From a virus, in IMG/VR virus record IMGVR_UViG_3300044630_001592, positions 1 to 48,001 of that record: a stretch of DNA of 48,001 nt; one strand, written 5' to 3'. The position numbers and the translations under genes were made by a program. Of this stretch, positions 6,153-28,605 are shown in pieces (the stretch's first letter is position 1; every line of letters begins with the position of its first letter). The notes under the pieces were generated by a model. That model was not told the DNA's origin. It ran no database searches and saw nothing but the letters and a program-made list of their open reading frames with translations.

Positions 6153-6183
6153 CAAATATACGAAAAATATTTTAGAAATCAAA
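6153..6183 (-). promoter_or_regulatory. Early promoter for the dut-44-62 unit
   Basis: Sense strand reads TTTG, 19 bases, TATATTTG. This matches the Bacteroidetes sigma-A pattern TTTG-N17-23-TAnnTTTG. It overlaps the gp43 stop region and precedes the 105-residue gene by about 22 bases. Confidence 0.75.
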
Positions 6184-8730
6184 GAATTTTTTTGCAGTTT
6201 GAACTTCGTTAGATGCTTTGTTCCATTTCAATGCGTTGTAAAAATCATCTAATTTGTTTTCCAACTCTGCTTTATAAATCATATCTCTATCAATATACTG
6301 TTCTATAAAATCCATAATTTCTTTTGGGTCGTTGTAATCTTTGAATGCAACTGTATCTAACCCTAATGGATTTTGTCTTAAATACACCCACTTAACTTTA
6401 TCACCATCTCTAATTGGTTCGTGCTTAAACGGTGAATTAAAGAATTTCAATAATCGGTTGTATGCAATTCCTGCTTTAACGTGTGCGGGTGTTCCTTTTT
6501 CAAACACTGCAATCTGTAACCCACTATCCTTTCTCCATTTACCATTATCATATTTACTCAACTCTTTAATTGCTCCACCTTTTGCAATGGTTTTAACTGG
6601 AAGTGTTGGTAAACTATTTTTAAATTCAATTAGGGTTTTATCTATATAATCATTATCTTTACCCATAAGAATATCTTTCAACATTGTTGACATAAATCCT
6701 TGAAATGCTTTAGGGAATGATGAACGAACTACATCTAAACCTTTTACGTCCAACTTATCACATTTGATACCATTCTTTAATACCATCCATTGTGCGTATC
6801 GTTTCTTTGCTACCCAAAAACCTGCTTTAGAGATATACTCTTTTTTGATTTCAAATCTATGTTTATCTTTTGGTATTCCAAAGAATCTTTCTGATAATAA
6901 ATCGTAAAAGTTGTTTAAAAATGTTTGGGTTTCTTCTGCAATAGTATTAACCTCATCCGCCATTCTTTGTTCATCGAATGTTTTGTATTCTGGAAAACGA
7001 TGTTTAACCAAAGGTTCTGCCATCATATAAATAGAATCAGTATCGATGTAGACGTTGTAATCTTCTTTTGTACCTAACTCTTTCCAATATTTGATGTTTG
7101 CCATCTCTGCCGTTTTCTTAATAACAGTTTGCCCCGTAATCGTAACTGCCTCTGCATTATCAATATCGTAAAACCGAAAGGCAGGAAGACCAAGAACACC
7201 ATACATAGAATTAAGCAAAATCTTTTGAACAAGCTGCCTTTTCGCATAAAACTCATATTTTTCCGTATCACCCGCTTCACCATATTGACTTTCTAATTTT
7301 CTGAATTCAACTCTTTGTTTAAACCAAGTATCCAGAATATCAGCAATAAGACCGGGTTTGTCCTGATTGTACAAAACTCCGTTTGCCGCAACTCCTAAAT
7401 TGCTATCTTTTATAACGTCTTGGAGTTCTGAACTACTATATTCATAAGTATCGTCTTTCCCAACAATTGTATAATTCCTATCTACACCTCTTACCCATTC
7501 TTCAGGATTCCAATTGGAAATCTTACCAATCTTTGTTTCTGGTGAAATATTAAGAGTCATAATGATTGATGGATATAGAGATGTTAAGTCCAAGTCATAA
7601 ATCCAATCATACTTACCAACAATAGGTTCTTTTACATAAGCTCCGATAAACTTCTCTTCGTTATTATCACGAAGTGCCTGCATCTTCTCCTTTCTATCCT
7701 TTGGTTTGTTTGGTGCTACTAAACCTTTCTTTTTCAAATACGCTAAACACGCACCCTCTAAATATTTCGATGAGAACATATAATCTTCATACGGAACAAA
7801 TCCCGCGTGGCAGATTGCCCTACATAACTCAATGAATTGTAGTTTTTCATCCATTGATACTACCAATTCCACATCGACAATGTTATATTCAATAAACTTT
7901 TCTAAATCGTTTTCGAATAAATCATCCAAACTTCCTTCGTATTCAATCTTACCTCTACCCAACTCTTTCTTTGCTATGTGGTCTAATGTATATGAACTCT
8001 CTAAACCATAGTTATAGTTTTTGTAAAGGTTGATGTAATCTAAAATAGATACACCACCAAAACTCCATCTTTGTCTGTAAGGAGAATAGAATGTTTCTGA
8101 TATAGGTGATAATCTTTTTGCGTGTCCTTCACCACATACCCTTTTAATACGATTGTATAAATAAGGAATATCAAAGAAGTCAATATTCCAACCTGTTAGA
8201 ATAGTAGGATTCACACCTTGATAATAAGTTAAAAATGCTAATAGCAAATTCTTCTCATTATCAAAGATGTGTACACTAACACTACGACCATCTTTATTGA
8301 ATTGTTGAGCAGTGTTCTTTACCTTTCTTGCCTTATCCAACACAAACACATCATACAATTTGGTTACACTATCGTGTGAAGCAATTGCAGTGATTTCATT
8401 TTTTGCATCAAAGGTGTTTGGTAAACCACTAATCATTTCAACCTCAATATCAAAGGTCATTGTTCTGTTTCCTGCTGATGGAATATCAGAATCGTATATA
8501 TCAACTAATACTCTGGTTGTTTCTGGAACATCGGATTCAAATAAATCAGGTGATTCATCTTTTTCCCATTTAGAAATCTTCCGTAATTTATCACCATACA
8601 TAGAACGATGTTCACCTTGCTGGTCTTTAACATATGCATACTTTCTGTACGGAAATGTTTGATACCCATTAGCATCATCCCATAAGTGAATTAAATTCTT
8701 TTGTCTTTCGTAATAAATATTTTGATACAT
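6172..8730 (-). CDS. 43: DNA polymerase, family B (gp43-like), with 3'-5' exonuclease
   Basis: The 852-residue protein is the replicative polymerase. The exonuclease domain shows MTFDIEVEMI (D94, E96) and TGWNIDFFDIPYL. The polymerase domain shows motif A DLDLTSLYPSIIM, motif B RQLVQKILLNSMYGVLG and motif C VYIDTDSIYM, all intact. Length is near T4 gp43 (898 residues). It should synthesise both strands with gp45, gp44/62, gp41 and gp32, all encoded nearby. The gene starts 9 bases after the upstream methyltransferase stop and has no clear promoter of its own. No intein or homing-endonuclease insertion is seen, although T4-like polymerases often host them. Confidence 0.97.
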   Translation of the reverse strand: MYQNIYYERQKNLIHLWDDANGYQTFPYRKYAYVKDQQGEHRSMYGDKLRKISKWEKDESPDLFESDVPETTRVLVDIYDSDIPSAGNRTMTFDIEVEMISGLPNTFDAKNEITAIASHDSVTKLYDVFVLDKARKVKNTAQQFNKDGRSVSVHIFDNEKNLLLAFLTYYQGVNPTILTGWNIDFFDIPYLYNRIKRVCGEGHAKRLSPISETFYSPYRQRWSFGGVSILDYINLYKNYNYGLESSYTLDHIAKKELGRGKIEYEGSLDDLFENDLEKFIEYNIVDVELVVSMDEKLQFIELCRAICHAGFVPYEDYMFSSKYLEGACLAYLKKKGLVAPNKPKDRKEKMQALRDNNEEKFIGAYVKEPIVGKYDWIYDLDLTSLYPSIIMTLNISPETKIGKISNWNPEEWVRGVDRNYTIVGKDDTYEYSSSELQDVIKDSNLGVAANGVLYNQDKPGLIADILDTWFKQRVEFRKLESQYGEAGDTEKYEFYAKRQLVQKILLNSMYGVLGLPAFRFYDIDNAEAVTITGQTVIKKTAEMANIKYWKELGTKEDYNVYIDTDSIYMMAEPLVKHRFPEYKTFDEQRMADEVNTIAEETQTFLNNFYDLLSERFFGIPKDKHRFEIKKEYISKAGFWVAKKRYAQWMVLKNGIKCDKLDVKGLDVVRSSFPKAFQGFMSTMLKDILMGKDNDYIDKTLIEFKNSLPTLPVKTIAKGGAIKELSKYDNGKWRKDSGLQIAVFEKGTPAHVKAGIAYNRLLKFFNSPFKHEPIRDGDKVKWVYLRQNPLGLDTVAFKDYNDPKEIMDFIEQYIDRDMIYKAELENKLDDFYNALKWNKASNEVQTAKKFFDF

Positions 8731-8739
8731 ACTTTAATT

Positions 8740-10311
8740 TTAAGGTTTGTAGAAAATGAAGATTGGTTCGTATTTGTAAACCATATCACCTATTTTCATA
8801 CTATTTTTAACTCCACTCAAATCAACACCGGTCATTGGACTCATTGTCATCTTAATCTTACCCTTATACTCACAACCCAACTCTGTAAGAATATCAATTG
8901 AATCCTGCTCTAATGGAAAAAACTTATCTTTACCCATTTTAATATCTGCAATATTCCAAAGGATGTATCTATCATTACGAAGATATTCAAATGCAGTTGT
9001 TAAAGTAGGTTTTAAAAACCCATCTCTCCAACTATCGTAATTATTGAACTTCTTAAATGATTGCGATTCATCGTTTGAGTATCTTTCTCTATCAAAGTAT
9101 GGTGGTGATGTAAATACAAAATCTAATTCACCTTTATATTTTTCAAAGTTGGAATCTAAATGAATTATTTCAGAACCAGTTGTAAAGATTTCATAGGTAT
9201 TTTGATGTCCCCAAAACGGATTACATGCACCAGGTATTTTATTATTAAAGAACTCTGCCAAATACTCATATCTTGTTTTACCAATTTCAGGTATTTGGTT
9301 TTCAGTATTAGGGTCATTACCTATGTAGTGAATATTTCTATCATCTACTGATAATGCTCCTAAAATTCTACCACCCCATCCTGCCGATGGGTCATAGATG
9401 TTAATCTTCTTTTGTTCCTTAATGTGCTCTGTAAATCTTTGATAAAGATACTTTGCAGTTAAAGGTGGAAAATTAACTACTGCCTGTGTTCCCATACCAA
9501 TACGGAATGCCGCAGTTGCTTCTGGAAAGATAGTTTGTCCAAAAGGATATGTTTTAATCTGTATAGGTTGTTTTGGAATATCAATTAGATTATCAATATT
9601 CTCACCCCAATCAGCAGTTTTAAGTGATGAAATATTTTCATACTTCAATATACCTGCGTTATACAAATCTCTTACCTCTTGTGCAGTAATTGGTGGAGAT
9701 GGAACTTTACTATCTGCCTGAGATAAACAAAAACCAAATCCTTTTTGAGTATCACCCTCTGCCCATTTCTCAATCCACTCTTTACCAGTTTGGATATGTG
9801 AGTTATGAAAATCAGGATGGTTTAAGTGTAAAGTTTTAGAAAAACGATACATACCATCTTGACGAGTTAGACGATTCATCTGTTTGATGAAATTTGGTAA
9901 ATACTCATCTTCTACAAAAATATCATAGATAGATGGTTTTGGATTATCGTATGCAGAACCACCGATGCCTGTTTTGTACATTGCAGGAAAGAATTGATTT
10001 ACACAAGTGGCAAATTTGTTAAAGTTAAAAATAACTTCATCACCATCTTTGTCTACTTTACTAAACTGATTAACTTTATATGTTTGTAGTTTAGAAAAGT
10101 TTTCAATAATTTCAGCTTCGTCCATACCAATTCTCGGTGGTGCATCCGTTCTGTTCCACTGCTCAATGGCAGTCTTACGAAAGAAATCAACCCATTTACC
10201 AAACTCAGGAAAAGGCATCTTCAATACATCTTCGTATTTAAGATTTATTTCAGGAGAGTAAATCCAATCGTTTCTTTCGTAAAAATACTTCTTTTCGTAA
10301 TTGAATGCCAT
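8740..10311 (-). CDS. SPPY-motif DNA methyltransferase-like protein with N-terminal extension
   Basis: The 523-residue protein has a Rossmann SAM-binding motif YDPSAGWGGRILGAL and IGNDPNTEN, then catalytic FTSPPYFDRERYSNDESQSF, the (S/T)SPPY form found in amino-methyltransferases that act on cytosine N4 or adenine N6. Roughly 230 residues before motif I have no family I recognise and may be a target-recognition domain. The C-terminal half is clearly paralogous to the 409-residue protein at 11099-12328: same AGWG motif, same PPYFxxERYS signature, same PxxxxxKP ending. It lies between gp45 and gp43. No restriction endonuclease partner is seen, so it is probably protective or epigenetic modification of phage DNA. 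A non-DNA substrate is possible. Confidence 0.8.
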   Translation of the reverse strand: MAFNYEKKYFYERNDWIYSPEINLKYEDVLKMPFPEFGKWVDFFRKTAIEQWNRTDAPPRIGMDEAEIIENFSKLQTYKVNQFSKVDKDGDEVIFNFNKFATCVNQFFPAMYKTGIGGSAYDNPKPSIYDIFVEDEYLPNFIKQMNRLTRQDGMYRFSKTLHLNHPDFHNSHIQTGKEWIEKWAEGDTQKGFGFCLSQADSKVPSPPITAQEVRDLYNAGILKYENISSLKTADWGENIDNLIDIPKQPIQIKTYPFGQTIFPEATAAFRIGMGTQAVVNFPPLTAKYLYQRFTEHIKEQKKINIYDPSAGWGGRILGALSVDDRNIHYIGNDPNTENQIPEIGKTRYEYLAEFFNNKIPGACNPFWGHQNTYEIFTTGSEIIHLDSNFEKYKGELDFVFTSPPYFDRERYSNDESQSFKKFNNYDSWRDGFLKPTLTTAFEYLRNDRYILWNIADIKMGKDKFFPLEQDSIDILTELGCEYKGKIKMTMSPMTGVDLSGVKNSMKIGDMVYKYEPIFIFYKP

Positions 10312-10312
10312 T

Positions 10313-11032
10313 CTAAGTGGTTAATTGAACTTCTACTAAATAATAGATTGCAGTAAAGTCATCAATCTTAAACTCAACGTGAGCAAGACCCGATGTTGAT
10401 ACATTTAATGTAACGGCGGTTGCCTCTTTATTTGCTGAGAAAATTTCTTTAAGATACTTTGCAGAGAATGAAATAGGTTTAACAGTTTCTGTATAATCTT
10501 TTTTAGCAGATAATGCGATTCGGTTTGAATTAACATTTGAATAACCTAATACAATTTTTAATTCCCCACCTTCAGTTACTACAGTAAATGTATCTACATC
10601 AGATAATGCATTTTTACTTTTGATAAATTTGTCAATAAATCTACCATCAAAACCAATATTAATATCAAAATCAGGTAAAGATTTTAAATCAGGTACAGTT
10701 GGAATAACTGCCAAATCTGCTAATTGGAATTGTATTTTATCATCATCACTTTTAATGAATAGATTAATTGCGTTTCCATTTTGCTCTTGGACTTCTAATT
10801 CAACATCTTCTCCTGCTACTGATAATAATTTATTCAATGCGGATGTTGTATATACTCCCAACTCCGGTGCATTAAATGTAAAATTATCCAAATGGATTTC
10901 TCCTAACACTGTCTTATCATCTGAGATAAAACGGGTAACCAATTTACCATCCGCTGCTTTCCATGCAACCGATTCTACTAATCCTGCCAAATTATACTTT
11001 TGGATGAATCGTGTAATTCTTGTTTTGTTCAT
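10313..11032 (-). CDS. 45: Sliding clamp, gp45-like
   Basis: The 239-residue protein has the length and the beta-alpha pattern of T4 gp45 (228 residues): KTRITRFIQKYNLAGLVESV at the start, a central FDINIGFDGRFIDKFIKSKN, and a C-terminal strand pair ending YYLVEVQL. gp45 forms a trimeric ring that tethers gp43 and, in T4, activates late transcription. It follows a strong early-type promoter and lies directly upstream of a methyltransferase and gp43. Identification is by pattern, length and synteny with gp43, gp44 and gp62. Confidence 0.88.
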   Translation of the reverse strand: MNKTRITRFIQKYNLAGLVESVAWKAADGKLVTRFISDDKTVLGEIHLDNFTFNAPELGVYTTSALNKLLSVAGEDVELEVQEQNGNAINLFIKSDDDKIQFQLADLAVIPTVPDLKSLPDFDINIGFDGRFIDKFIKSKNALSDVDTFTVVTEGGELKIVLGYSNVNSNRIALSAKKDYTETVKPISFSAKYLKEIFSANKEATAVTLNVSTSGLAHVEFKIDDFTAIYYLVEVQLTT

Positions 11033-11063
11033 ACTTACTTTATTTTTAAATTTAATTGTTTTA

Positions 11064-11095
11064 CAAAGATACTATAATTTTTTGATATTTCCAAA
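11064..11095 (-). promoter_or_regulatory. Early promoter for gp45
   Basis: Sense strand reads TTTG, 20 bases, TATCTTTG, then an AT-rich leader of about 30 bases to the gp45 ATG. The element matches the other early promoters of the window in both boxes and spacing. Confidence 0.75.
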
Positions 11096-11098
11096 TTT

Positions 11099-12328
11099 TT
11101 ATGGTTTTTTCCATACCCAAACTGGTTCACAGAATGTTTTATTTTTAACTTCTTCTGCTTTTCTTAAAGATTCTTCGGTATATCTACCTTCATCCCCATC
11201 TATGATTGCACCTGCTCCCGCTGAACCCGGTCTCTTGGCCATTTCCATGCCCAAGCAACCCTCATATTCTCCTCCTATTGATTTAATATAATCGTTCATA
11301 GGGTTTGTTATCTCTTGGTATCCTTTACCATCCCCTTTGGAAGCTGCGTACACATCTGCAATATTGATTGCTAAGTATCCTCCCTTCCGAATAGTTGGCC
11401 AAACCTTTTCAATTGTCTTATGTAGGAATAACTTATTCCACGCATCGATATTATTGTATCTGACCCAACTCTGGGTATCATCATAAGAGTATCGCTCAAC
11501 GTTGAAGTAAGGTGGTGAGCTGAAAACAATATCAAAATAATCGGTGTAATCGCTATAATCCATGTCCTCGGCTGGACTGCAATGGAATGTAGTTTTTTTA
11601 TCTGTTTCGAAAAAACCGTTGTGTTTTTTGTAGAATTCTGCTTGTTGTTCATAAATTGGATGATTTTCTTTTCTCGGGTCAATTCCCACATAATGCTCTC
11701 CTTTTTCGGATGCCATAAAACCACATAATCTATCTCCCCATCCTGCCGAAATGTCTAACACATTCTTTGCAGCTACCATATCGTAAAGTGCTTTTGCAAC
11801 ATTAGGTTTGAATTGAGAGCAGATATACTTTCTCAGACTTAAACAAACTCGTAGTTCGTTTCTACCTACTGAATCAAATTTAAGAGTGTATAACCCACCC
11901 ATTAACGATGTCATAAAATCCTTACTATTCCAAGTTCTTTTCGGGCCTGGCGAAACGGTGCCGTCAACAGACCAACGATTGGCTTGTTGAAAGAAATTAG
12001 ATGAAGAGTTGCCAGTATTTAGTCTTCTTACGAATTGTTGCTTGCCCCGAAATGTTAGTGCATATTTACTTTCGGATGCTTTGCGCGGAAACCATTCACC
12101 ATCTTTAAGTAATTCGTTGTAACGAGTTCCCTTTAAGGCAAGATATTCCTTGCGTGCTTCTGATTCCGTAATTTCAGCATAGGGAAGTTCGTAGTCCATG
12201 CAGACTTGTGCAAGAGAGTCTTTTACATCATCTCTATCAAATGTTGTTTTAATATAACTCCATTCCTCACTATTAATGTGCAGATACGGAGTCATACCTT
12301 TAAACTTGTCAAAGTAATTTATATACAT
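11099..12328 (-). CDS. SPPY-motif DNA methyltransferase-like protein
   Basis: The 409-residue protein has SAM motif I LDISAGWGDRLCGF (about residue 190), motif II-like YVGIDPRKEN, and catalytic motif IV FSSPPYFNVERYSYDDTQSW. It is a paralogue of the 523-residue protein at 8740-10311, differing mainly in the N-terminal region, so the two may recognise different targets. KGGYLAINIADVYAASKG is consistent with motif V-VI. Its end is followed by the gp45 promoter, so the two methyltransferases bracket the clamp gene. I cannot tell N4-cytosine from N6-adenine specificity from the motif alone, and no cognate nuclease is encoded here. Confidence 0.8.
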   Translation of the reverse strand: MYINYFDKFKGMTPYLHINSEEWSYIKTTFDRDDVKDSLAQVCMDYELPYAEITESEARKEYLALKGTRYNELLKDGEWFPRKASESKYALTFRGKQQFVRRLNTGNSSSNFFQQANRWSVDGTVSPGPKRTWNSKDFMTSLMGGLYTLKFDSVGRNELRVCLSLRKYICSQFKPNVAKALYDMVAAKNVLDISAGWGDRLCGFMASEKGEHYVGIDPRKENHPIYEQQAEFYKKHNGFFETDKKTTFHCSPAEDMDYSDYTDYFDIVFSSPPYFNVERYSYDDTQSWVRYNNIDAWNKLFLHKTIEKVWPTIRKGGYLAINIADVYAASKGDGKGYQEITNPMNDYIKSIGGEYEGCLGMEMAKRPGSAGAGAIIDGDEGRYTEESLRKAEEVKNKTFCEPVWVWKKP

Positions 12329-12900
12329 ACTGTTTCTATATTTTTGTCTGCAACCAATCGTAATCTATATACTATACCTTTAATAATACCATCTTTTTTA
12401 CTTGTCCAAAATATTTCAGAATCTTTTACAAATCCGTAACGATTATAAAATCTAACGGCTTCATCATTATGTTCTCTAACGGTTAGAAATAAATTTTCAG
12501 CATGTTGAGCTTTACAATGTTCTACAAACATATCCAGTACTCCTTTAGCTGCACCTTTGACAGTATCGTTTGTTGCAATTTGATGTAAAATAAAATCACC
12601 ATTTTTTTTGTATGTTGTAGCATTTCTACTCAACCTACCATTACTTTTGTATCTACCAAATGTTAATACCACCCCATCTTGCAATATAACTGCACCCTTT
12701 TCAAAATATTTTCTTAATTTAAAACCTTGTTTATACAAGTGAGGAAATATCATTGGATACATATTAATAATACCGATTGCTTCATCGGTTGCTAGTTCCA
12801 ATTCTTTTGTTGGAAATGAATTTCCATGTTTATCGGTTATAATACCTGCTTTTACGAAATTTAACATATTAAAAAAATTTATAAATTTATGCATACTCAA
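12319..12900 (-). CDS. GNAT-family acetyltransferase
   Basis: The protein (193 residues from the first ATG; 182 from an internal ATG at 12867) shows the GNAT ending LTVREHNDEAVRFYNRYGF, the acetyl-CoA-binding and product-release segment of the fold, followed by a last strand IVYRLRL. DFILHQIATNDTVKGAAKGV contains the likely pyrophosphate-binding loop. The first ATG overlaps the end of the AsnB-like gene by 14 bases. The internal ATG follows an AT-only stretch and gives a more usual N-terminus, MLNFVKAGII. An early-type promoter lies inside the upstream gene at 12932-12962. Substrate is unknown; host protein, amine or modified base are all possible. Confidence 0.78.
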   Translation of the reverse strand: MSMHKFINFFNMLNFVKAGIITDKHGNSFPTKELELATDEAIGIINMYPMIFPHLYKQGFKLRKYFEKGAVILQDGVVLTFGRYKSNGRLSRNATTYKKNGDFILHQIATNDTVKGAAKGVLDMFVEHCKAQHAENLFLTVREHNDEAVRFYNRYGFVKDSEIFWTSKKDGIIKGIVYRLRLVADKNIETVCI

Positions 12901-14344
12901 AAAACTTGTTTAAATTTAAAGTATCTTTATACAAATATACGGAATTTAATTGAGATTTCAAAGTCTCTTTTCTAGCTTCTATCAAATCACCTGTTCTGCA
13001 TCCTTTTGCAAAGAATACTTTAGGTCTGAATAGTAACTCATCAGATATTTCACCTTTAAATGCGGCTCTCAATAATGGTTTCATATGACCATTTTCCTTT
13101 TGATATAATGGTGGTATGTTTAAACCGTATTCTACAAATGGTCTCCAACTATATGGTGTTCTAACTTCAACTGTCCCACCCCACATAATGGATTGATTAG
13201 TAGTTAAGAAATTTGTTTTATGTACATCTTGTACTAATTTTCTTCTAGCTTTATCATAATCTTCGGGTTTGTAATGAAATGCCTGAATATGACCATAACT
13301 ACCCCAAATTTCATCTGATAAATCACCACTAAATACAACTTTAAATCCTAATTCATCTATCTTTTTACCCAATGCAATTTGTGCAATAGCAGAACCTAAA
13401 TTTTGCCATCTTGCTTGTTCGATTACATACAAAGTTTCGGGAATTGATTTTATAACATCATCTTCTGTTAGAATAATTTCATGCAACTTTACACCAAATT
13501 CTTTTGCAGCAATTCTGGCATATTTTATATCATCATTCTTTGTATCACCATCTCCCATTGAAACCACAAATGCTTCAATATTAGGATTTATCTTTGAAAG
13601 TATATAAGTTGTTATTACAGAATCAATTCCACCACTTAAAATAGTACAAATTGGAACATCTGATACCATTTTAACCTCAACTGCTTTTTGTAGCATTTCT
13701 CTGATGTTTTTAACAATGGTATCTCTATCATCATTAATAATTTCAGTTGGTAATGTATAATAAGTTTTGATTGAATTTTCTAACGTTTTGTAATTATATT
13801 CCAAATACGTTCCTGGATAAACAGCTTTGACCTGCTTTTGATATAATTCGGAAATGGGTAATCCTTTCTTTTCGGAACAAAATACTAATTTACCTTCATT
13901 GTTAATCGCATACCACAATGGTAACTCACCAACATAATCCCTAACAACGAAAGCGGTGTTTAACCTAGTATCTACTATGCAAAAAGAAAACATCCCATCT
14001 AACTCTTTGAATGAGTTAATTCCAAAATCCAAATACGCATTAAGAATTATTTCAGTATCTGATTTTGTTTTAAAAGGTGTTGTTATACTTTCTTTTAATT
14101 TTTTAGTATAATCACTACCCCATAATTCACCATTATATACTATACAAACAGTTTTATCTTCATTCCACATTGGTTGATTTGCAGATGAAGATAAATCTTG
14201 TATTGAAAGACGATTGTGTCCGATATAAAAATCTTCAACAATATCTATTTGCGATGCATCTCTACCTCTATGTAATATTTTTTTAAGAGATAATTCTACT
14301 TCTTTTTTACTACTAAATGCGTTCCCGCCTATAATTCCACACAT
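12887..14344 (-). CDS. Asparagine synthase (glutamine-hydrolysing)-type amidotransferase
   Basis: The 485-residue protein is a class II glutamine amidotransferase fused to an ATP-pyrophosphatase synthetase domain. The N-terminal nucleophile is Cys2 in MCGIIGG, with HNRLSIQDL and VYNGELW of the glutaminase site. The synthetase PP-loop is LSGGIDSV (residues 236-243), and FSGDLSDEIWGSYG matches the AsnB region that binds ATP and substrate. It is shorter than E. coli AsnB (554). Both half-reactions look possible: ammonia from glutamine passed to an adenylated acid. It may make asparagine, or amidate another acid group such as a sugar or base substituent. Its promoter lies only four bases upstream of the ATG. 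Confidence 0.88.
   Translation of the reverse strand: MCGIIGGNAFSSKKEVELSLKKILHRGRDASQIDIVEDFYIGHNRLSIQDLSSSANQPMWNEDKTVCIVYNGELWGSDYTKKLKESITTPFKTKSDTEIILNAYLDFGINSFKELDGMFSFCIVDTRLNTAFVVRDYVGELPLWYAINNEGKLVFCSEKKGLPISELYQKQVKAVYPGTYLEYNYKTLENSIKTYYTLPTEIINDDRDTIVKNIREMLQKAVEVKMVSDVPICTILSGGIDSVITTYILSKINPNIEAFVVSMGDGDTKNDDIKYARIAAKEFGVKLHEIILTEDDVIKSIPETLYVIEQARWQNLGSAIAQIALGKKIDELGFKVVFSGDLSDEIWGSYGHIQAFHYKPEDYDKARRKLVQDVHKTNFLTTNQSIMWGGTVEVRTPYSWRPFVEYGLNIPPLYQKENGHMKPLLRAAFKGEISDELLFRPKVFFAKGCRTGDLIEARKETLKSQLNSVYLYKDTLNLNKFFEYA
12932..12962 (-). promoter_or_regulatory. Early-type promoter inside the AsnB-like gene, driving the GNAT gene
   Basis: Sense strand reads TTTG, 19 bases, TATATTTG, within the last codons of the amidotransferase gene. 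It points toward the GNAT gene and leaves a leader of about 25 to 60 bases depending on which ATG is used. Confidence 0.6.
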
Positions 14345-24164: not shown

Positions 24165-24196
24165 CAAATATACGGAAAATATTTTACTTTTCCAAA
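24165..24196 (-). promoter_or_regulatory. Early promoter, leaderless type
   Basis: Sense strand reads TTTG, 20 bases, TATATTTG, TATTA, ATG. Both boxes match the Bacteroidetes sigma-A pattern. It lies across the end of the 135-residue gene. Confidence 0.75.
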
Positions 24197-28574: not shown

Positions 28575-28605
28575 CAAAGATACAAAAAATAATTCACATT
28601 TCAAA
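28575..28605 (-). promoter_or_regulatory. Early-type promoter for the family A polymerase-like gene
   Basis: Sense strand reads TTTG, 19 bases, TATCTTTG, TAGAT, ATG. Only five bases separate box and ATG, so the transcript is nearly leaderless. It is the only early-type promoter I found inside the late block. Confidence 0.75.

Follow-up and report, generated by a model that had tools for sequence, protein, structure and literature searches.

Two predicted amino-methyltransferases flanking the sliding-clamp gene of a T4-like phage, and the apparent joint transfer of one of them with the clamp

Phage methyltransferases that counter host restriction are usually seen as scattered accessory genes. 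Here, we analysed a stretch of 48,001 nt (positions 1 to 48,001 of the IMG/VR virus record IMGVR_UViG_3300044630_001592, referred to as the window), in which the genes of two predicted amino-methyltransferases, M523 and M409, lie on either side of a sliding-clamp gene. In this case gene order, and in part shared descent, tie a probable methyltransferase to an essential component of the replication machinery: the clamp gene appears to have been exchanged together with it and not with the clamp loader or the polymerase. We consider it probable that M523 and M409 are orphan amino-methyltransferases that protect phage DNA from host restriction and that they are organised in two modules, AsnB-GNAT-M409 and clamp-M523. 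In the open-licence literature, a scope that has bioRxiv preprints outside it, we found no earlier description of joint inheritance of a clamp and a phage methyltransferase. Loci and records of relatives are denoted by L and G numbers, respectively.

Several described systems resemble parts of this locus. The enzymes of the family PF01555 have in common with M523 and M409 the SPPY motif and a Rossmann domain that binds S-adenosylmethionine (AdoMet), whereas the window proteins differ from them by a score below the cut-off, a long N-terminal part and the lack of a restriction partner in the window. The tRNA m2G methyltransferases (Trm11/TrmN) lead the matches of M523 and M409 to solved folds, with Z values of 15.6-15.8, at which other kinds of methyltransferase tie with them or follow within 1; the catalytic motif here is SPPY. 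According to PMC8885841, SPPY is common to most bacterial N4-cytosine methyltransferases while N6-adenine enzymes have DPPY. In the CmoA-CmoX-CmoY carboxymethylcytosine system of Synechococcus phage S-B43, a DNA methyltransferase homologue lies beside an asparagine-synthetase-like enzyme, as it does here; CmoX, however, is a C5 enzyme with SPPC in place of the SPPY seen here (PMC12783734).

Among viral protein families, phrog_12517 matches the catalytic part of both proteins (E 1.2e-12 for M523 and 3.2e-16 for M409), and so does phrog_498, which is named DNA methyltransferase (E 5.5e-10 and 7.7e-6, respectively). Similar genes are present in Vibrio phage 2.058.O and in Bacteroides DAC phages, and for M523 also in Staphylococcus and Mammaliicoccus phages, at 26-31% identity, with 31-54% of the query aligned. 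In none of the four named-phage regions read does a clamp annotation adjoin the homologue, although that of DAC16 consists entirely of entries labelled 'hypothetical protein'. By polymerase, the nearest named phage is Microcystis phage Mel-JY01 (49%), and its record is not among the named-phage matches of M523 and M409. Putative N4-cytosine methyltransferases of pithoviruses in BFVD, so named by annotation, align with M523 at 14-17% identity over 473-517 columns including gaps, which is longer than the catalytic domain.

Catalytic features and probable substrate

Judged by its gene content, the 48-kb window comes from a T4-like phage with a contractile tail. The gene set, all on the minus strand, includes a family B polymerase, clamp, clamp loader, ribonucleotide reductase, DnaB-like helicase, UvsX-like recombinase, tail sheath and baseplate-hub. 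The row of genes M523, clamp, M409 places both methyltransferases next to the clamp. The features at the centre of this analysis are as follows.

8740..10311, minus strand: M523, predicted amino-methyltransferase, 523 aa; long N-terminal part, then catalytic domain with AGWG and FTSPPYFDRERYS
10313..11032, minus strand: sliding clamp (gp45/PCNA-like), 239 aa; PF02747 PCNA_C 21.9 bits (cut-off 23), phrog_12062; 1 base from M523
11064..11095, minus strand: promoter of Bacteroidota type, TTTG-20-TATCTTTG, in front of clamp-M523-polymerase; 31 nt before the clamp start
11099..12328, minus strand: M409 (subfamily M409a), predicted amino-methyltransferase, 409 aa; AGWG and FSSPPYFNVERYS
6172..8730, minus strand: family B DNA polymerase (gp43-like); PF00136, phrog_262; 9 nt after M523

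In BLASTP, residues 281-523 of M523 align with residues 173-409 of M409 (29% identity, 260 columns, E 2e-26), while the N-terminal parts have no significant BLAST match to each other. Both proteins have AGWG, SPPYFxxERYS and related endings (EPIFIFYKP in M523 and EPVWVWKKP in M409). AGWG starts at residue 310 of M523 and 195 of M409 and SPPY at 402 and 271, respectively, so that motif I precedes motif IV in both. These values bear out the sequence-only reading, which had described paralogous SPPY-type methyltransferases around the clamp: coordinates, motifs, endings and differing N-terminal parts all stand. In an alignment of 22 rows of M523 and a third form of the family, C350, every row keeps SPPYF, the C-terminal EP and, within ERYS, the E, Y and S; in the alignment of 39 M409 rows, SPPYF, the E and Y of ERYS and EP are invariant and the S nearly so. 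The AdoMet motif I, GWG[GD]R, is invariant in both. The C-terminus reads EPIF[IV]FYK[PK] in 14 of 14 M523 rows, and EPxWx[WF]xK plus 0-4 further residues in M409-type proteins. Because motif I stands before SPPY and no long domain follows, recognition, if it is sequence-specific, should lie N-terminal.

The AlphaFold2 models (pLDDT 83.9 for M523 and 90.8 for M409) both have the class I AdoMet (Rossmann) methyltransferase fold, as judged by matches to solved structures. PF01555 was found at E <= 0.01 in 35 of 39 M409-type proteins (best 1.9e-7). Among viral fold matches of M523 in BFVD, ranks 1, 2 and 5 are pithovirus proteins named 'site-specific DNA-methyltransferase (cytosine-N(4)-specific)' (E 2.7e-13, 1.1e-12 and 2.2e-11); the name type I methyltransferase is given at ranks 4 and 6 and glutathione synthase at rank 7, while rank 3 is nameless. 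The invariant SPPY, the PF01555 matches and the N4-cytosine names together make an exocyclic amino group in DNA the most likely substrate, as far as motifs and models can indicate, and they favour N4 of cytosine over N6 of adenine.

The earlier reading of DNA modification thus stands as the best inference, with RNA kept as a rival substrate. M523 and M409 would in that case N-methylate guanine or adenine in tRNA or rRNA and thereby aid translation or resist RNA-targeting defence, which we regard as quite unlikely. The closest solved folds are indeed the tRNA methyltransferases Trm11/TrmN/Trm14, with Z values of 15-16 in VIA-align (rank 1 at 15.6 for M523 and 15.8 for M409), although these rows rest mostly on the catalytic domain. 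However, O-methyltransferases reach the same Z for M409, and a precorrin methyltransferase comes within 1 for M523, so the fold leaves the choice between DNA and RNA undecided. DPPY is the motif that marks Trm11. The motif here is SPPY throughout and not DPPY or NPPY (compare PMC8885841 on SPPY), N4-cytosine DNA methyltransferase is the name given to three of the top five viral fold matches of M523, and the genes stand among replication genes.

Under the preferred reading of DNA protection, the unlike N-terminal parts of M523 and M409 would carry sequence recognition. M523, made together with the clamp and the polymerase apparently from one transcript, would modify phage DNA early, and M409 in the next unit upstream would add a second specificity. 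The position of M523 behind the clamp, apparently on the clamp-polymerase transcript, implies that its production would coincide with phage DNA synthesis.

A steady nuclease partner was rejected. The regular-expression search for HNH/ParB-like nucleases over the loci of relatives gave 2 proteins (L171 and L193), one of them next to M409, and candidates such as the HNH protein of L193 are only sporadic. Proteins of L155 and L141 that looked by eye like possible nucleases had no convincing Pfam match. Also by eye only, L172 has a 358-aa gene that is adenine-methyltransferase-like and a 191-aa gene that is possibly a nuclease, and L174 has another possible nuclease.

The clamp-M523 module and its apparent exchange between lineages

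Among 59 distinct loci in which the gene immediately upstream of M523 is visible, that gene is the clamp in 50, and the ends are mostly touching or nearly so. Neighbour counts for these loci, and for the 101 M409a genes considered below, are biased since the loci were mostly fetched through genes of these families (M genes). We therefore also used a polymerase-fetched set chosen without M genes, namely the best 80 of 472 loci. In this set, M523 was present in 29 loci, polymerase and clamp stood without an M gene in 49 (M-negative loci), and 2 loci (L317 and L352) showed too little. The assignment of M523 was by a match over 150 aa in 26 of the 29; in L288, L290 and L291 the contig end cuts M523.

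Clamp identity differs between the two classes. Where the clamp is visible in M523-positive loci of this set (19 of 29), it is 67-91% identical to that of the window (67 once, otherwise 75-91). The 49 M-negative loci (L311-L364) have polymerases of 82-85% identity and, behind the polymerase, clamps of only 54-58%, while in six M523-positive loci the polymerases reach 83-86% and the clamps 75-81%. The converse is seen in L043 and L205, whose polymerases are only 67-68% identical, yet their clamps are 80-82% and their M523 81% identical; the gene order there is polymerase-clamp-M523, in contrast to clamp-M523-polymerase in the window. In longer records of M-negative relatives, profile scans found M genes in 0 of 9, whereas the same profiles matched 16 of 16 other records.

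In a tree of clamps from 63 loci, the M-negative clamps are united by a long branch (support 100/99), and the clamps of L043 and L205 fall with that of the window and similar clamps in a group of 26 rows (100/100). Against the polymerase tree, this 26-row group was rejected by the approximately unbiased test (p-AU 1.7e-51, or 8.5e-50 without the M-negative rows). It was likewise rejected against the loader tree (p-AU 6.5e-5, or 5.8e-8 without the M-negative rows), where other rows add to the rejection. The M523 tree has no such single group, yet the grouping is not rejected there (p-AU 0.345). A polymerase-like grouping was in turn rejected by M523 (p-AU 0.0099) and by the clamp (0.0002). By these tests, the clamp and M523 of L043 and L205 appear to have moved jointly and without polymerase and loader. 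The pair appears to have come together from a window-like phage, or the reverse, with at least one exchange between phage lineages.

We give somewhat better than even chances to linkage, in which clamp and M523 move as neighbours in one recombination tract with no functional tie; this is compatible with a protective role of the methyltransferases and is a rival to any co-adaptation of the pair. Adjacent genes are often exchanged as one segment. Moreover, M523 stands away from replication genes in L063-L068 and L207-L211, and in L045 and L058 it is paired with another clamp lineage. On the other hand, polymerase and loader, which are the partners of the clamp, were not exchanged along with it, and clamp and M523 stay paired where the gene order differs (L043 and L205 compared to the window).

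Alternatively, clamp and M523 might be a co-adapted pair, in which M523 docks on the clamp and modifies the daughter strands during their synthesis, and the M-negative clamp is without the docking surface. We consider this rather unlikely. The missing docking surface would explain why gain or loss of the methyltransferase goes with replacement of the clamp and not of the loader or polymerase. Such a pair would be the phage counterpart of maintenance methylation by DNMT1 bound to PCNA. The C-terminus of the window polymerase, KKFFDF, resembles what we take to be a clamp-binding tail, and polymerases of relatives mostly end in FFxF, others in ERFF or EKFF. Such an ending would be suited to clamp binding, but M523 does not have it. 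Coupling of modification to the replication fork, as suggested in the sequence-only reading, is possible and gains plausibility from the co-inheritance of M523 with the clamp.

A functional pair, if true, would mean replication-coupled DNA modification in a virus, for which loci with closely similar polymerases, with and without M523, provide natural matched pairs. Even if there is linkage only, the exchange shows that a gene of the core replisome can pass from one lineage to another along with a gene that probably serves to evade defence.

A number of results weigh against the overall reading of protective methyltransferases in conserved modules. With respect to function, M523 scores 24.2 bits for PF01555 (N6_N4_Mtase), below the gathering score of 26.7, and the Pfam scan gave no PF01555 match for the window M409. 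The solved folds nearest to both proteins are the tRNA enzymes described above. The pithovirus superpositions on M523 are loose (TMq 0.37-0.45, rmsd 9-16 A) and the names are annotations only. In the permuted N4-cytosine methyltransferase of PMC8885841, SPPY is N-terminal to the AdoMet motif, the opposite of the order in M523 and M409. No restriction endonuclease family was found in the neighbouring window genes scanned, and the earlier claim that no restriction-enzyme partner is visible holds for the window genes scanned by family. A polymerase-like FFxF tail is present in neither the C-termini of M523 (14 rows) nor those of M409-type proteins, though an internal motif is still conceivable.

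With respect to the module, the gene upstream of M523 is a different one in 8 of the 59 loci and M409b in 1, and 49 of the 80 close relatives have no M gene in the locus. The pairing is broken in L045 and L058, where M523 (77-78%) is joined to a clamp of 51% identity. Holding M-negative clamps with their polymerase neighbours was rejected at p 0.042 only, and support is only 36/33 for the branch that would set the 36 nearer M523-positive clamps apart from the M-negative clamps. The M-negative state may go back to a single event (p 0.685 on the polymerase tree and 0.090 on the loader tree). The joint transfer of clamp and M523 rests on few events.

The M523 copies of L063-L068 and L207-L211 are 76-78% identical, in a neighbourhood without replication genes. 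Their neighbours include a gene that is sulfotransferase-like by eye and, in several loci, a 2OG-oxygenase-like gene (2OG, 2-oxoglutarate).

The AsnB-GNAT-M409 module and the origin of the two enzymes

Upstream of the clamp, M409 is preceded by two further genes and a second promoter-like site.

12319..12900, minus strand: GNAT acetyltransferase; PF00583 28.1 bits, above cut-off
12932..12962, minus strand: further promoter-like site within the 3' end of asnB, at 31 nt from the start of GNAT
12887..14344, minus strand: AsnB-like amidotransferase with glutaminase and synthetase domains; PF00733 E 1.4e-44, PF13537 E 2.2e-28; upstream member of the M409 module

We fetched 41 loci by the window AsnB. 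GNAT comes directly after AsnB in all 41, and M409 is next in 38. Of the three exceptions, the contig of L220 ends first, L250 has no M409 within 2.2 kb and L245 has M409 elsewhere. The unit has two gene orders, either after thioredoxin or after clamp and loader. For the 101 distinct M409a genes, the clamp is at most 2 genes away in 46, GNAT in 28 and AsnB in 28; in many marine contigs M409 is directly between clamp and loader, without AsnB.

In other relatives, different genes take the place before M409. These are PLP-enzyme-like and thymidylate-synthase-like genes (both just below the Pfam cut-off), a 2-hydroxyacid dehydrogenase, large unknown proteins and an HNH protein with a weak GmrSD_N match. 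The position (window 12319-14344; L086, L083, L006, L106, L114 and L127) looks like a swap site at which modification or metabolic genes are exchanged, the variants being AsnB-GNAT, the PLP-enzyme-like gene, the thymidylate-synthase-like gene with AsnB, and the dehydrogenase with a 756-aa unknown protein. In L133, L134 and L142, M409a is directly followed by a gene whose product joins a P-loop ATPase region to a GNAT region (390 aa in L142) and resembles the ABC-ATPase-GNAT combination discussed below; such a gene is also found in L048, L054 and L059, there before the clamp. The thymidylate synthase family is present in 6 of 16 records, with no link to the M genes shown among these 16.

Given the conserved unit, M409 might be no plain methyltransferase but act with the AsnB-like amidotransferase and GNAT in a more extensive base hypermodification, e.g., one in which a modified AdoMet donates a larger group that is then amidated or acylated. 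Besides the unit itself, the swapped genes before M409 and the ATPase-GNAT gene after it in L133, L134 and L142 speak for such a role. In S-B43, an asparagine-synthetase-like ligase acts after a carboxymethyltransferase, and a glutaminase domain is present in a second cluster of these ligases (PMC12783734); the combination of ABC-ATPase and GNAT is a predicted DNA acyl-modification system (PMC7824862). Nevertheless, M409 also occurs without adjoining AsnB or GNAT, between clamp and loader in many marine contigs. AsnB and GNAT are both common in sugar and amino-acid metabolism. The carboxy-SAM synthase CmoA (TIGR00740) of the S-B43 type of system was found in 0 of 17 records, all of which are possibly fragments and whose host could conceivably supply it; the carboxy-SAM (carboxy-S-adenosylmethionine) route for M409 and AsnB was rejected on this count. 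Overall, hypermodification by M409 seems quite unlikely to us.

A very divergent methyltransferase-like protein of 307 aa with CPPYFNIEKY is encoded at L089:6543-7466, three genes before another AsnB-GNAT pair.

The family is widespread among viruses. Profile scans gave at least 585 viral stretches with M409 relatives, some of them perhaps other family members, and 166 for M523. In 16 long IMG/VR records, M409-type genes are present in 15, M523 in 15 and C350 in 5, and both M409-type genes and M523 are in 7 of 7 records above 200 kb. In genome_contigs, searched by exact peptide patterns that may miss relatives, profile A2 confirmed 1 relative among 58 candidate stretches. This is a contig of a Flavobacteriales metagenome-assembled genome (L212) that is itself viral-looking. 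Profile A4 matched 2 of 395 genomes of the same order, namely that of the L212 contig (polymerase-clamp-M409-cl44) and one weak partial match of 26.5 bits. On these scans, which may miss relatives, a bacterial origin of the family was rejected since the sole confirmed bacterial-genome contig looks viral, and the methyltransferase family looks phage-specific.

The sequence-only reading had proposed duplication followed by specialisation for M523 and M409. For this pair the proposal is not borne out: in the catalytic-domain trees, long branches part M523 and M409, and C350 and outside phage enzymes fall between or beside them. M523, C350 and the outside enzymes stand apart from M409, so that the window pair is better explained by an ancient split or by two separate acquisitions than by a local duplication that is still visible. 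That the pair arose by one local duplication around the clamp is unlikely in our view. The common catalytic domain and endings would fit it, and grouping M523 with all M409 was not rejected (p-AU 0.194 and 0.078); against it, M523, C350 and the outside enzymes split from M409 at 100/100 once the two longest rows were removed, and in record G003 (237 kb) a distance of 18 kb separates the M523 gene from the M409 gene.

The proposal fits better within the M409 line. The first tree unites M409b and the second M409a (100/99 each), in agreement with a split inside this line. In relatives, M409a and M409b are a clear tandem duplication. Seven M409b proteins are 36-39% identical to the window M409 in the first 165 residues and 57-60% in the remainder; the stronger divergence of the N-terminal part fits specialisation after the duplication and agrees with recognition by that part.

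Promoters and probable host

We searched the window for TTTG-N17..22-TANNTTTG, the consensus of Bacteroidota promoters, and compared it with 100 shuffles of the window. The pattern occurs 10 times, compared to 4.07 +/- 2.20 in the shuffles, 2 of which reach 10. The coding strand holds 7 of the 10 matches, and 5 of these 7 end 5-31 nt before a listed ORF start, including 11064-11095 and 12932-12962. A sigma-70 scan gave 11 promoter-like sites, below the 18.5 of the shuffles, so the Bacteroidota pattern did better. Intergenic sequences between an M409-type gene and the clamp in relatives have TANNTTTG exactly in 7 of 15 distinct cases and a one-base variant in 8; a sixteenth row, L200, is an overlap as called and is outside the 15. 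The suggestion that the clamp has its own promoter is supported by the TTTG-20-TATCTTTG site at 11064-11095 (minus strand) and by similar sequence in relatives. Based on the promoter pattern, the TANNTTTG sequences of relatives and the Flavobacteriales contig L212, the host is likely a member of the Bacteroidota, probably aquatic.

Two further promoter-like sites, 24165-24196 and 28575-28605 (minus strand), end 5 nt before listed ORF starts; this would mean nearly leaderless transcripts, or real starts further in. In addition, two glycosyltransferase genes (phrog_2170) at 199-2854 of the window adjoin the exonuclease and clamp-loader genes and are also present in many relatives, with a DNA base or the cell surface as a possible target.

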